In this document: piece after piece, positions 2 through 38,892 of the stretch
How positions within the stretch are numbered: the stretch's first letter is position 1
Layout of the letters: every line of letters starts with the position of its first letter
Notes under the pieces: model-generated
Seen by the model: only the letters and a program-made list of their open reading frames with translations
Database searches by the model: none
Told to the model about the DNA's origin: nothing
Assembly (NCBI GenBank): GCA_027002375.1
Contig: JALWZX010000065.1
Span: forward strand, 1 to 38,936
Source of the DNA: a candidate division WWE3 bacterium
Lineage (GTDB): Bacteria > Patescibacteriota > WWE3 > 2-01-FULL-39-13
Length of the DNA: 38,936 nucleotides
Direction of reading: 5' to 3'
Position numbers and translations under genes: made by a program

Positions 2-3000
2 GTAACAGTAACAGATAATACAGATGGAACAGTTACATTAAACTTACCACAAGATATACATACATCAGCAACACCAACATTTGATTCATTAACTTTAACA
101 AATGGATTAGTAGCAGATACAAATACACTAGTAGTAGATGCATCAAATAATAGAGTAGGAGTAGGTAATGCATCACCAAGTGCATTATTTACAGTAGGTA
201 CAGGTGCATCAGCTTTTACTGTAGATAATGCAGGGTTAGTTACAACGAATAATGATGTAGTAATAGGTAATAGTGCAGACCTAAAGATTGGTTCTATAGC
301 GTTAAGCGATGGAGCATCGGCATCATCAACAACGTCAGGTGCATATTTAGTAGGTGTGTATGATGAATTTGATAATAGTAATAGCACAAATGTACAGGAT
401 GTTCTTGATGATTTAGATGCAGCCATAGCAAATGCTGGTGGCGATGTAACAACTGTAGGTGATGCGACTTCCTCAACACCGTTTACCGCCGATGGCGATG
501 GTAATACATTATGGTTTGAAGGTTCAACTGCTGATAACAACGAGATAATATTGACGACAGCAACTGACCCGACTACAGATTATACTATCAATTTACCAGC
601 ATCAAACGGCACAATTGCATTGGGTTCAGGTACAACAAACGGGGTGGCGTATTGGTCAGCAGATCATGTTCTCACATCAGAATCACAACTTAGCGTATCA
701 AGAGGTGGTACTGGCGCATCCTCATTAACGTTAGGGGGAATTCTACTCGGTAACGGTACGAATGCGATAACTGCAACGGCACAACCAACAAACGGGCAAT
801 TACTAATAGGTTCAACTGGAAATAATCCAGTATTAGGTACAATAACAAGTACTGATTCGGCAAATGAGATATCAATAACAAATGGTGCAGGTACAATACA
901 ATTAGACTTACCACAAGGTATCTCAACAACTTCAACCCCAACGTTCTCAACAATAAGAACAGGTACAGCAGCCGGGCAAGGGTTCGTAGAACTTTATCAA
1001 ATGGATCAACCAGTAACAAAGGCTTCAAATGTAGAATTTGCTGATATATTATACACCCCTGAAAGTTCGGCAACTGCTACAAGAGGTAGATTATACTTTG
1101 ATTCCGATGACAATAAATTATATGTTTACGATGGTTCGAATTGGGTCGATTTAACTCAACAAGATACAAATACCCAATTATCAGAATCTGATGTCGAAGC
1201 AATGATATATGATAACGATAATGATTTAAACGCTAACTGGTTAGTAAATTTTGGAGCTTATAACGGTACATTCAACCTAAATGGCACTGGTGATCTTAAC
1301 ATACAATCGAATGGGTCAACATTTGCATCATTTGACAATTCAGGTTTATTTACTTTAGATAATTTGCAATTAAACGGTAATACCATTGGGCTAACAACAG
1401 ATTCAGATCTATTATCACTAGCAAACAGCGCACTCACAGTTAATGGCACATTAACTACAACCGGGTCAGTAACAGCTCCAACTGATGAATCAATAAATGG
1501 TATAGATATTAATAATGGTGCAGTTTCAGATGTATCTAACTTGTCAGTAAATACTGGTGGGTATGTATCAATTGGTGGAATTCAATTAGATGCTTCTGGT
1601 TCCGATAATACACATTCTGGTGCGTCAATAATTGGAACATACGATGAGTTTGCAAACAGTGACAGTACAACTGTTCAAGGTGTACTAAACGATTTAGACG
1701 ATAAAATTACGAATTCTACACATGATCCTGTAACTTTGGCTGGTTCGTATGATTACTTAACATTAAGTGGTCAGCAAATCACATTAAATCAAATCGACTT
1801 AACAACAGATGTAACAGGAACACTACCAACGAATAATGGTGGTACAGGTATGGATACAAGTGGGTCAACAGGTGTGGCTACAATAAATAGCGGTACATGG
1901 GCAATAACACCGAATTTATCTTCTTCATTAGGTGGTACAGGAAAAGATACATCAGGCAGTACAGGTGTACCATTTATATCAAATGGAACATGGAACGTAG
2001 ATAATAATTACTTATCAGTAGCACATGGTGGTACAGGTACAAATACATTTACGGCAAATGGTGTACTGTTTGGCAACGGTGTTAGTGCAATACAATCTAC
2101 AGCACAAGGCACAGCTGGGCAAGTGTTGTCTGTGAATTCCACCACACTAAACCCTGAATGGATAAACCAAAGTGCTATAGATGCAGGTACAGTTGACGGC
2201 AGAGACGCAGCTGATTTCCTAAGATCAAATGCCACAGACAACTATACATCAGGAACATTAACATTTGATAGCGCTACAACATTAAATATAGCGTCAGGTT
2301 CGACTTTAGATATCGATGGCACATGGCAAATCGGTGATACTGCAGTAACAGCAGATGCAAACGAATTAAATATTCTTGATGGTGCTACCATTTCAACCAC
2401 AGAACTTAACTTGTTAGATAACAGATCTGGCACACTAGTAGATACAAACAATATCTCAAGCTATGCGGTTACATCATTGACAGCTGGTTCTGGTTTAAGT
2501 GGTACGGCTACCCAGGGTGCAGTAACATTATCAGTAAACGCTGGTGACGGTATTATAATGGGTGGTACAGGCTCAGACTATGTAACTGTTGATTTGTCAT
2601 CAGGTGCAGGTACAACAAGTTTGAGTCAATCAGCTTCAGGTTTAGAAGTAGATTCTGATGGTTTAAGCTTACTTTCTAATTGTGGTGATGCTGAAGTTCT
2701 GGTTTGGGACGATTCATCTGCCGTATGGAAATGCCAAGCCACCAGCTCATTTGGGTCAATAAGTCAGGTTGGTGAAGTTACAACAGGCGCAGCATTTTCT
2801 GAAGATGGCTCTGGTAATTCGTTGTGGTTTGAAGGTGCAACATCTAATGACAACGAAATCTTATTAACTGCAGCAGATCCTGGTGCAGACTACACAATTA
2901 CATTACCTGCTGTTACAGGCGATGTTGTACTTGGTTTAGGTGCAACAAACGGTGTACCATATTGGACATCAGCTCATGTATTGTCATCAGAATCACAACT

Positions 3001-36584: not shown

Positions 36585-37010
36585 ATGCACCATGTAGCAA
36601 TAATGAAAAAGAAATGGAAATTAATAGATAAAATTCTATCTGGTGAAAAGACAATAGAATCTAGGTGGTATAAAAATCGTTACAAACCTTGGAACAGTAT
36701 TAAAGCTGGTAACTTAGTTTATTTCAAAAATTCCGGTGAGGCGGTAACTGCAGTTGCTGAGGTTGAAAAAGTGTTGCAGTTTGACAATTTAGATAAGAAT
36801 CAGTTCAATTACATTATAAGAAATTATGGGAAATCTATTGGTTTGCGAAACGCAAAATATAGTGATTATTACAAGTCGAAGAACTATTGCATATTGATAT
36901 TTCTAAAAGATGCTAAAGAATTGCAATGTCCATTTAGCATAGATAAAACAGGATACGGTAACGCATGTGCATGGTTGTGCGTTGATGATGTTAAAAATTT
37001 AAAGAGATAA
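36585..37010 (+). CDS. ASCH-domain protein
   Basis: 'WKLIDKILSGEKTIESRWYKNRYKPWNSIKAGNLVYFKNSGEAVTAVAEVEKV' matches the ASCH/PUA-like pattern. Confidence 0.8.
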   Translation: MHHVAIMKKKWKLIDKILSGEKTIESRWYKNRYKPWNSIKAGNLVYFKNSGEAVTAVAEVEKVLQFDNLDKNQFNYIIRNYGKSIGLRNAKYSDYYKSKNYCILIFLKDAKELQCPFSIDKTGYGNACAWLCVDDVKNLKR

Positions 37011-37903: not shown

Positions 37904-38548
37904 TTAGAACTGCACTAGTTTTCTTGCTATGCTTAAAGTTTCTTTAGCACGTTCAATTCCTGTTAGTAATTCGCTTGGAATGTTGTTGTTGGGAAATAGA
38001 ATATTCAGTCTTTCTGGGTTTATCCAAGTTAGCACAAGTTGGTCTTGATATTCTCCAAGTGTGAACTCAGTTTTGTAAAATCTGCCTGTTACAGTGTATC
38101 CAACTTTCTGCAGGGCTTTCCATGATCCAACGTTATCTGCATTAACTTGTGATCGAATTGTATTTCTGTTCAAAACATTGGCAGCGTACCATGTTCTAAG
38201 AATGTGTGCTCTATATGCAACACCTTTTCGCCACCAGTTTTGGTCTGCAATCATTATTCCACTTGAGCAACTTAAACCTTTATCATTAATGTGGTGCAAA
38301 CTTGTGTAACCTATCAAACTACTGCCATCTTGTGGTTCAATTGCCCATGTTATTGCATCGTTTTGTTCTCTAATGTTCTTAAACCAATATTCTTCATCTT
38401 CTTTTACCGATCCTTGAATCATACCTAAGTATCTTATTACTCTGTACGAAGATACTAAAGTTGCAGATCTTTCCATTTCATCTTTTCGTGGTGGGCGAAG
38501 TGTGATTTTTAAACCATCTAAGTTTATGCTAATTGTAGGACCAAACAT
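37904..38548 (-). CDS. GNAT N-acetyltransferase (RimJ/RimL type)
   Basis: 'NRNTIRSQVNADNVGSWKALQKVGYTVTGRFYK'. The ATG at 38548 (MFGPTISINLDGLKITLRPP) has an AAGGAGA SD at the right distance; the track's upstream ATG (38698) has none and lies next to a terminator. Confidence 0.88.
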   Translation of the reverse strand: MFGPTISINLDGLKITLRPPRKDEMERSATLVSSYRVIRYLGMIQGSVKEDEEYWFKNIREQNDAITWAIEPQDGSSLIGYTSLHHINDKGLSCSSGIMIADQNWWRKGVAYRAHILRTWYAANVLNRNTIRSQVNADNVGSWKALQKVGYTVTGRFYKTEFTLGEYQDQLVLTWINPERLNILFPNNNIPSELLTGIERAKETLSIARKLVQF

Positions 38549-38701
38549 TGTAGAATCTCCTTTTAAGAATGTTATGAAATTGAAATGTGCAAGTTGATCC
38601 ATCTGACTTAAGCACAGCAAACCATCACCTTCGATTAGGCCTAAATTTGATGGATCAGAAAAACCGTTAACAAAGACTAAAAGATTATAATAATACATAA
38701 C

Positions 38702-38724
38702 AAAAAAGCCTCTGTTAGAGGCTT
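38702..38724 (-). terminator. Intrinsic terminator/attenuator upstream of the GNAT gene
   Basis: Minus strand AAGCCTCT-AAC-AGAGGCTT followed by a run of T; 8-bp perfect stem. Confidence 0.85.
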
Positions 38725-38810
38725 ATCTTATCGGTCAAAATTTTATGTGGAATTAAAAGGTTAGATAAGCTCTAACATATGTACAATTGCAGTAGCCACC
38801 CTTGTTAGAG
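38702..38810 (-). promoter_or_regulatory. Candidate leader-peptide transcription attenuator (segments 1-4)
   Basis: mRNA segments: 1 CTCTAACA (38810-38803), 2 TGTTAGAGCTTATCT (38777-38763), 3 AGATAAGCCTCTAACA (38728-38713), 4 AGAGGCTT + U tract. 1:2 gives 8 bp; 2:3 gives 15 bp with one bulged C; 3:4 is the terminator. Confidence 0.7.
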
Positions 38811-38854
38811 ATTTCTACAGCAGAATATGTGTTAGTCATCTTATCTAATTTCAT
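38753..38854 (-). CDS. Putative leader peptide, 33 aa (or 28 aa from the in-frame ATG at 38839)
   Basis: MKLDKMTNTYSAVEISNKGGYCNCTYVRAYLTF*; preceded by -35/-10-like boxes and followed by attenuator hairpins. Confidence 0.5.
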   Translation of the reverse strand: MKLDKMTNTYSAVEISNKGGYCNCTYVRAYLTF

Positions 38855-38863
38855 AATAGACGG

Positions 38864-38892
38864 ATTTTAGCCTATAATAAACCAGAACGCAA
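38864..38892 (-). promoter_or_regulatory. Putative promoter for the leader ORF/GNAT
   Basis: Minus strand TTGCGT - 17 nt - TAAAAT. Confidence 0.45.

Follow-up and report, generated by a model that had tools for sequence, protein, structure and literature searches.

The window analysed here, the whole stretch of 38,936 nt of contig JALWZX010000065.1 from a candidate division WWE3 bacterium, very probably carries a ribosome-mediated transcription attenuator, most likely sensing a general slowing or stalling of elongation, in front of a RimL/SpeG-like GNAT acetyltransferase gene. The parts of this predicted switch, their covariation, the set of genes it precedes and its leaderless geometry were established by comparative analysis of homologous loci. 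The recurrence of the same switch before dozens of acetyltransferase and drug-pump genes suggests, at the sequence level, an inducible resistance system. A system with such a switch seems to be undescribed in Patescibacteria; a literature search, with most subscription journals outside its scope, found no paper on attenuators in this phylum.

Architecture of the leader in the window

All the elements of the leader, as well as the regulated gene, are on the minus strand. The promoter lies near the contig edge, since the contig stops at 38936, and consists of a -35-like box TTGCGT (38887-38892), a weak match whose spacing fits the -10 box, and, after a 17-nt spacer, of the -10 box TAAAAT (38864-38869). 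Nine nt separate the end of the latter from the ATG of a putative leaderless upstream ORF (uORF) of 33 codons, MKLDKMTNTYSAVEISNKGGYCNCTYVRAYLTF (38753-38854), with counterparts in 42 related leaders; the transcript start is predicted 2-3 nt 5' of this ATG, and an inner ATG at 38839 gives 28 codons. The uORF includes the main segment 1, TTAGATAAG ... CTAACA (38830-38848, with TTAGATAAG at 38848-38840 and CTAACA at 38835-38830), identified by the uORF fold and the 1:2 arm swap as the partner of segment 2. Segment 2, TGTTAGAGCTTATCTAA (38761-38777, with TGTTAGAG at 38777-38770), occupies the final uORF codons and was defined by its conserved pairing with segment 3 and by compensatory changes. 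An octamer, CTCTAACA (38803-38810), is, by sequence and folding, an inner alternative partner of segment 2, and a second copy of it is found inside 38720-38713.

Downstream of the uORF, segment 3, AGATAAGCCTCTAACA (38713-38728), comprises the 5' arm of an intrinsic terminator, its extension and the loop. The terminator, AAGCCTCT-AAC-AGAGGCTT (38724-38706), is completed by segment 4, AGAGGCTT (38706-38713), as the 3' arm of a hairpin of -9.9 kcal/mol, and is followed by a U tract (38700-38706). Segment 5, TGTTAACGGTTTTTCT (38657-38672), an imperfect complement of segment 3 which is weak in the window, and the hairpin H2, GATCCATC ... GATGGATC (38596-38656), seen in the fold of the post-terminator leader, lie between the terminator and the gene. 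The Shine-Dalgarno (SD) sequence AAGGAGA (38556-38562) and the GNAT gene follow (37904-38548; 214 aa, Pfam Acetyltransf_3, SpeG/RimJ-like fold).

The promoter boxes, the 33/28-codon ORF, the octamer copies, the terminator, AAGGAGA and the GNAT ATG at 38548 had been reported in an initial annotation and were all found as described there. This ATG was retained as the GNAT start because the MFGP sequence beginning at it is conserved across homologs; a longer ORF, starting at 38698, was ruled out by the homolog alignment. Except for a tRNA, no Rfam family scored above its gathering threshold in the window. An intrinsic-terminator scan of the window was at chance level (1 found, against a shuffle mean of 1.0) and, since the terminator match alone equals the shuffle level, the significance of the leader rests on its conservation.

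An ASCH-domain gene (36585-37010, plus strand) is close to the GNAT gene but in the opposite orientation. An ASCH-domain gene is likewise found antisense to the GNAT of the homologous locus L006 (2171-2635, GNAT-sense-strand numbering), possibly as a conserved neighbour, the two loci sharing it despite GNATs only about 43% identical.

Conservation of the leader and of its alternative pairings

A search of 98 related genomes retrieved five GNATs of the same class with 42-50% identity; a named genome collection added members from WWE3, Dojkabacteria, Collierbacteria and Saccharibacteria, and a sample of the phylum four more GNAT homologs. The promoter, a uORF of 24-44 codons, the terminator, the SD-like site and the gene order are kept in 15 of 17 homologous GNAT loci. 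The GNAT homologs L021 and L036 have no leader; there the promoter stands directly at the GNAT gene, and these loci represent natural controls without the switch.

A first covariance model, built on segments 2-4 of ten loci and searched in 48 and 389 genomes, found the full leader before an MFS transporter gene (L044) and before a distant GNAT (L070), and matched more weakly ahead of two other MFS genes (L075 and L080). A second model came from 15 loci; applied to 298 and 91 genomes belonging to two further classes, it returned 22 new matches with E<=1e-4. Twenty of these 22 include a uORF and precede a GNAT or MFS gene. These searches, all within Patescibacteria, used the leader only and were blind to gene content. 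The resulting set amounts to 43 leaders, 31 before GNAT and 12 before MFS genes; leader statistics were computed on 42, L104 having been dropped in re-annotation. Among the regulated proteins scanned against Pfam, MFS_1 or Acetyltransf_3 was confirmed.

Leaders were also observed before other genes. L114 (match 1501-1577, plus strand) has a leaderless-looking Trp uORF, MVTRTSHANYWFTGSTSCGLFRVLK, and a terminator before trpS, with a small ORF between, and looks like a patescibacterial attenuator of the classical amino-acid type. L129 (match 1501-1569) has an HFHHYH uORF and a terminator before an M20 peptidase-like gene, possibly a His-type attenuator, and L122 and L132 have LVLIIIVSS uORFs and a terminator before uncharacterised genes, possibly branched-chain-type attenuators. 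In L113 (match on the minus strand) a similar leader precedes a small ORF and a gene for an AlaX-like alanyl-tRNA editing protein.

The 2:3 duplex of the window has an energy of -12.2 kcal/mol, against -5.4 in shuffles (p 0.004), reaching -18.2 kcal/mol once the 5' part of segment 2 is included. The uORF end complements the terminator 5' arm in 15 of 15 leader-bearing GNAT loci, examples of 2/3 complements across loci being GCTTATC/GATAAGC, GACTCAT/ATGAGTC, GGCTCG/CGAGCC and GGCGAAG/CTTCGCC. The sequences vary between loci, yet arms of the same locus pair better than arms taken from different loci (-16.7 versus -12.0 kcal/mol over 42 leaders, p 5e-5), and pairing is better than in shuffles (z below -2) in 37 of the 42. 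Combined Fisher p values against shuffles were 6e-15 for the 15 loci and 5e-38 for the 42 leaders, values that ignore relatedness, leaders of the same family not being independent. For this reason arm-swap and covariation counts were added, by which kinship is only partly removed. The 15-locus alignment contained 11 double-sided changes against 2.9 in shuffles (0/500), and swapping arms between loci of the same set weakened 2:3, 3:5 and 1:2; with 20,000 permutations, all three reached the lowest attainable p value. The 2:3 antiterminator, which the initial annotation had proposed as exclusive with the terminator 3:4, is thus sustained by conservation and compensatory changes; indeed, the homologous loci, to whose comparison that annotation had entrusted its reading, have retained both the uORF and, through compensatory changes, the complementarity of segments 1, 2 and 3.

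The pairing 1:2 is conserved in a different form from that first suggested. The minimum-energy 1:2 structure in the window uses TTAGATAAG and CTAACA and not the octamer at 38810-38803, which, in window folding, pairs with segment 2 when the main segment 1 is occupied by a ribosome. If segment 2 was drawn narrowly, 1:2 gave no significant result (p 0.24); significance appeared once 14 upstream bases were added to segment 2. The uORF fold has a z of -2.6 in the window and a mean z of -2.85 over 15 loci, in most of which segment 2 pairs with codons 2-9, L006 being a clear exception. Over 42 leaders, cognate 1:2 pairing reached -17.3 versus -10.7 kcal/mol (p 5e-5), with z below -2 in 27, and the control pairings 1:3, 1:5 and 4:5 showed nothing in the same leaders. 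The octamer CTCTAACA, taken earlier as segment 1, is not conserved as such in other leaders; what is conserved is the 1:2 pairing as a whole-uORF hairpin. The features recognised are those of a ribosome-mediated transcription attenuator of the trp/his/erm(K)/mef type: a short ORF, predicted to be translated, upstream of the gene; an intrinsic terminator between the two; a mutually exclusive antiterminator on the terminator 5' arm, kept by covariation; and an anti-antiterminator (1:2) when the uORF is untranslated, with L006 and L022 as exceptions.

Segment 5 sits 3' of the terminator, directly before H2; its complementarity to segment 3 takes in the terminator loop. Over 42 leaders, cognate 3:5 pairing was -19.8 versus -14.0 kcal/mol (p 5e-5; median z -4.6), with z below -2 in 35 of the 42 and of only -0.5 in the window itself; segment 5 is absent from the two shortest leaders, L023 and L024. 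It emerges too late for a direct effect on the terminator, and a role in stabilising or processing the read-through mRNA is possible. A translation-level switch in which segment 5 masks the SD of the gene was considered and found weak support, as did segment 5 freeing that SD; masking of the SD by segment 3 found none, the arm-swap test over 42 leaders having failed. A hairpin equivalent to H2 is present in the post-terminator fold of most homologs. In L002, L003, L004 and L016, an SD-like AAAGGAG/TGGAGG motif with no clear start codon is found in the H2 loop region, possibly a ribosome standby site or a decoy.

Ribosome position, signal and regulated proteins

In equilibrium folding of the window, the RNA free of ribosomes adopted 1:2 and 3:4; placing a ribosome near codon 5 gave 2:3, and placing one at the stop codon gave 3:4. 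This reproduces the trp/erm-type logic (OFF, ON upon early stalling, OFF) anticipated by the initial annotation, the balance being close to borderline once U-tract bases may pair. The same OFF/ON/OFF behaviour, with 2:3 for a ribosome near codon 5, was obtained in most loci in an analysis covering 11 of 15. In L006 and L022, 1:2 is not favoured over 2:3 without a ribosome, so that absent translation might there switch the gene ON rather than OFF. Given the close equilibrium balance, the order of synthesis must decide, and we infer that the switching takes place co-transcriptionally. At the pre-terminator stage, 2:3 can form when the ribosome stalls anywhere between codon 1 and about codon 20-25, a broad range of stall positions which fits a general sensor.

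A uORF of 24-44 codons is present in all the leaders used, namely the window and 42 related leaders. The end of the -10-like hexamer is 6-10 nt from the uORF ATG in 38 of 42; the uORF has no SD in 41 of 42, the regulated gene has an SD-like motif in 39 of 42, and 18-40 nt separate the uORF stop from the terminator arm. Since the -10 box adjoins the ATG and the SD is absent in 41 of 42 leaders, the uORF is probably on a leaderless transcript, with start sites as predicted.

According to the proposed mechanism, the transcript would begin at the uORF AUG or 2-3 nt 5' of it and would be translated during its synthesis. A ribosome reaching the stop codon would cover segment 2, letting the 3:4 terminator form; with no translation, the uORF RNA would fold on itself (1:2) and 3:4 would again terminate transcription. 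A ribosome slowing or stalling after having melted segment 1, short of segment 2, would instead leave segment 2 free to pair with segment 3 while segment 4 has yet to emerge, and the polymerase would read into the acetyltransferase gene. The signal would most likely be elongation that generally slows or stalls, chiefly under ribosome-targeting antibiotics coming from neighbouring organisms or the host.

As to the leader peptide, the uORFs of 42 leaders contain no amino-acid run reaching 4 residues, the longest being of 2-3 mixed residues, and most amino acids are absent from at least some uORF; the lack of a single-amino-acid run, previously remarked for the window, extends to the 42 leaders. 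No peptide conservation between clades was observed, and no conserved arrest motif of the MRLR type was found. An unconserved peptide without a long run, and the presence of this switch before TetA(P)-like pumps as well, make a general slowing or stalling of elongation the likely signal. An antibiotic-specific stalling of the erm/mef type, in which an early uORF peptide together with the bound drug would arrest the ribosome, appears rather unlikely. Many uORFs do have a basic residue among the first codons, and the mef(E), msr and erm(K) leaders are known to use an MRLR-like arrest (PMC4335068), but the peptides vary by clade and several are without a basic residue. An early basic residue was considered as a universal feature; it holds in the first 15 loci and fails in others.

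The GNAT was modelled with AlphaFold2 (mean pLDDT 92), and its fold is closest to SpeG polyamine acetyltransferases, RimJ-type acetyltransferases and a lasso-peptide acetyltransferase also being among the matches. The sequence profile retrieved SpeG first and aminoglycoside 6'-acetyltransferases lower down, with the GNAT below the SpeG NCBIfam equivalog cut-off (PRK15130, 24 bits versus 218). The leader-controlled MFS transporters resemble TetA(P)/Tet(40): when six were scanned against NCBIfam, TetA(P) was the best match in five, and L096 matched the HP1165 efflux family first and TetA(P) third. All these matches stay far below the cut-offs (for TetA(P), 24-67 bits against an exception-level value of 750), with membership of MFS_1 reached, so that these proteins are to be regarded as relatives, not members. 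Since its regulation is shared with efflux pumps, a GNAT acting as drug- or target-modifying enzyme is favoured; such a role would have polyamine detoxification as its main rival. A translation-inhibiting drug as the inducer is strengthened, short of proof, by this gene set of GNATs and efflux pumps.

If the system served the detoxification of polyamines or cationic compounds, SpeG-like GNATs and MFS exporters would remove polyamines sensed through the ribosome. Among PDB entries, SpeG spermidine acetyltransferases are indeed the closest in both sequence and fold, and in Bacillus the MFS exporter Blt is paired with the polyamine acetyltransferase BltD. We deem this unlikely, however, as the similarity, of about 20%, extends only to the general Acetyltransf_3 fold, the leaders showed no conserved polyamine-arrest peptide and the MFS matches are mostly to drug-efflux models.

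An amino-acid-specific attenuator of the trp/his type, where one limiting charged tRNA would stall the ribosome in the uORF, would have an identical architecture; leaders of this type seem present in the phylum (the Trp uORF of L114 before trpS and the HFHHYH uORF of L129), and Asn is frequent in our uORFs, at position 2 in 21 of 42. It is nonetheless very unlikely here, given that no residue recurs preferentially at a given position, no run is longer than 3, no regulatory codon run was found and the regulated genes are neither biosynthetic nor tRNA genes. An ordinary terminator of an upstream transcript with chance complementarity, the GNAT having its own promoter, would agree with the chance-level scan and with promoter-like hexamers found also downstream, but is hardly credible, being already contradicted by 1:2 and 2:3 pairings conserved and covarying over 42 leaders and by the repeated gene association.

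Significance and comparison with known attenuators

Patescibacteria are tiny and mostly uncultured, and their gene regulation is, to our knowledge, almost unstudied. A ribosome-mediated attenuator responding to general elongation slowing would provide a testable regulatory element in this phylum, with ribosome progress as input and acetyltransferases and efflux pumps as outputs; the leaderless uORF is offered as the ribosome sensor, and the conserved downstream partner of the terminator arm is unexplained by existing attenuator models. Resistance-like genes have been listed for these genomes, with leaders or attenuation not mentioned (PMC8651080), and among many such weak matches the switch would point to those GNAT and MFS genes that are probably genuine, inducible determinants of resistance. 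That these leaders form a distinct five-segment class of Patescibacteria, with a self-folded leaderless sensor uORF, a terminator arm with two partners (2 and 5) and fixed GNAT/MFS targets, has in our judgement about even chances. If true, this class would be a phylum-wide, post-initiation response to translation inhibitors, and segment 5 a second checkpoint, on mRNA stability or read-through translation, not known from other attenuators.

The trp and his attenuators share the 1:2, 2:3 and 3:4 segments with our leaders, which differ in having no regulatory codon run and in a uORF that itself holds segments 1 and 2. Leader peptides on leaderless transcripts, as proposed here, are also found in the attenuator uORFs of S. 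meliloti and Actinobacteria, which are amino-acid-specific and belong to other phyla and genes. Generic ribosome slowing, a leader ORF of about 28 codons, no specific peptide and intrinsic terminators make the tet(M) leader of Tn916 alike; it controls a ribosome-protection gene and has a different anatomy, and is not known to have a downstream segment 5. The vmlR, vga(A) and cplR uORFs control ABC-F factors in Firmicutes. They are short uORFs before a resistance gene that respond to several antibiotics, as ours would, but, unlike ours, are thought to stall ribosomes at start codons (as cited in PMC12121999). The mef(E)/mel (msr(D)) system of Streptococcus likewise combines a leader peptide, a terminator, an anti-attenuator and an MFS efflux pump; its leader peptide, MTASMRLR of 8 codons, has a dedicated SD and an arrest motif specific for macrolides (PMC4335068), whereas the uORFs described here are long, probably leaderless and without an arrest motif. 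Finally, toiL, upstream of topAI-yjhQ-yjhP in E. coli, acts on topAI translation and Rho termination, in place of the intrinsic terminator found here, but senses many ribosome-targeting antibiotics, as our leaders would, and, as in our leaders, has the whole uORF engaged in the repressive pairing (PMC12121999).
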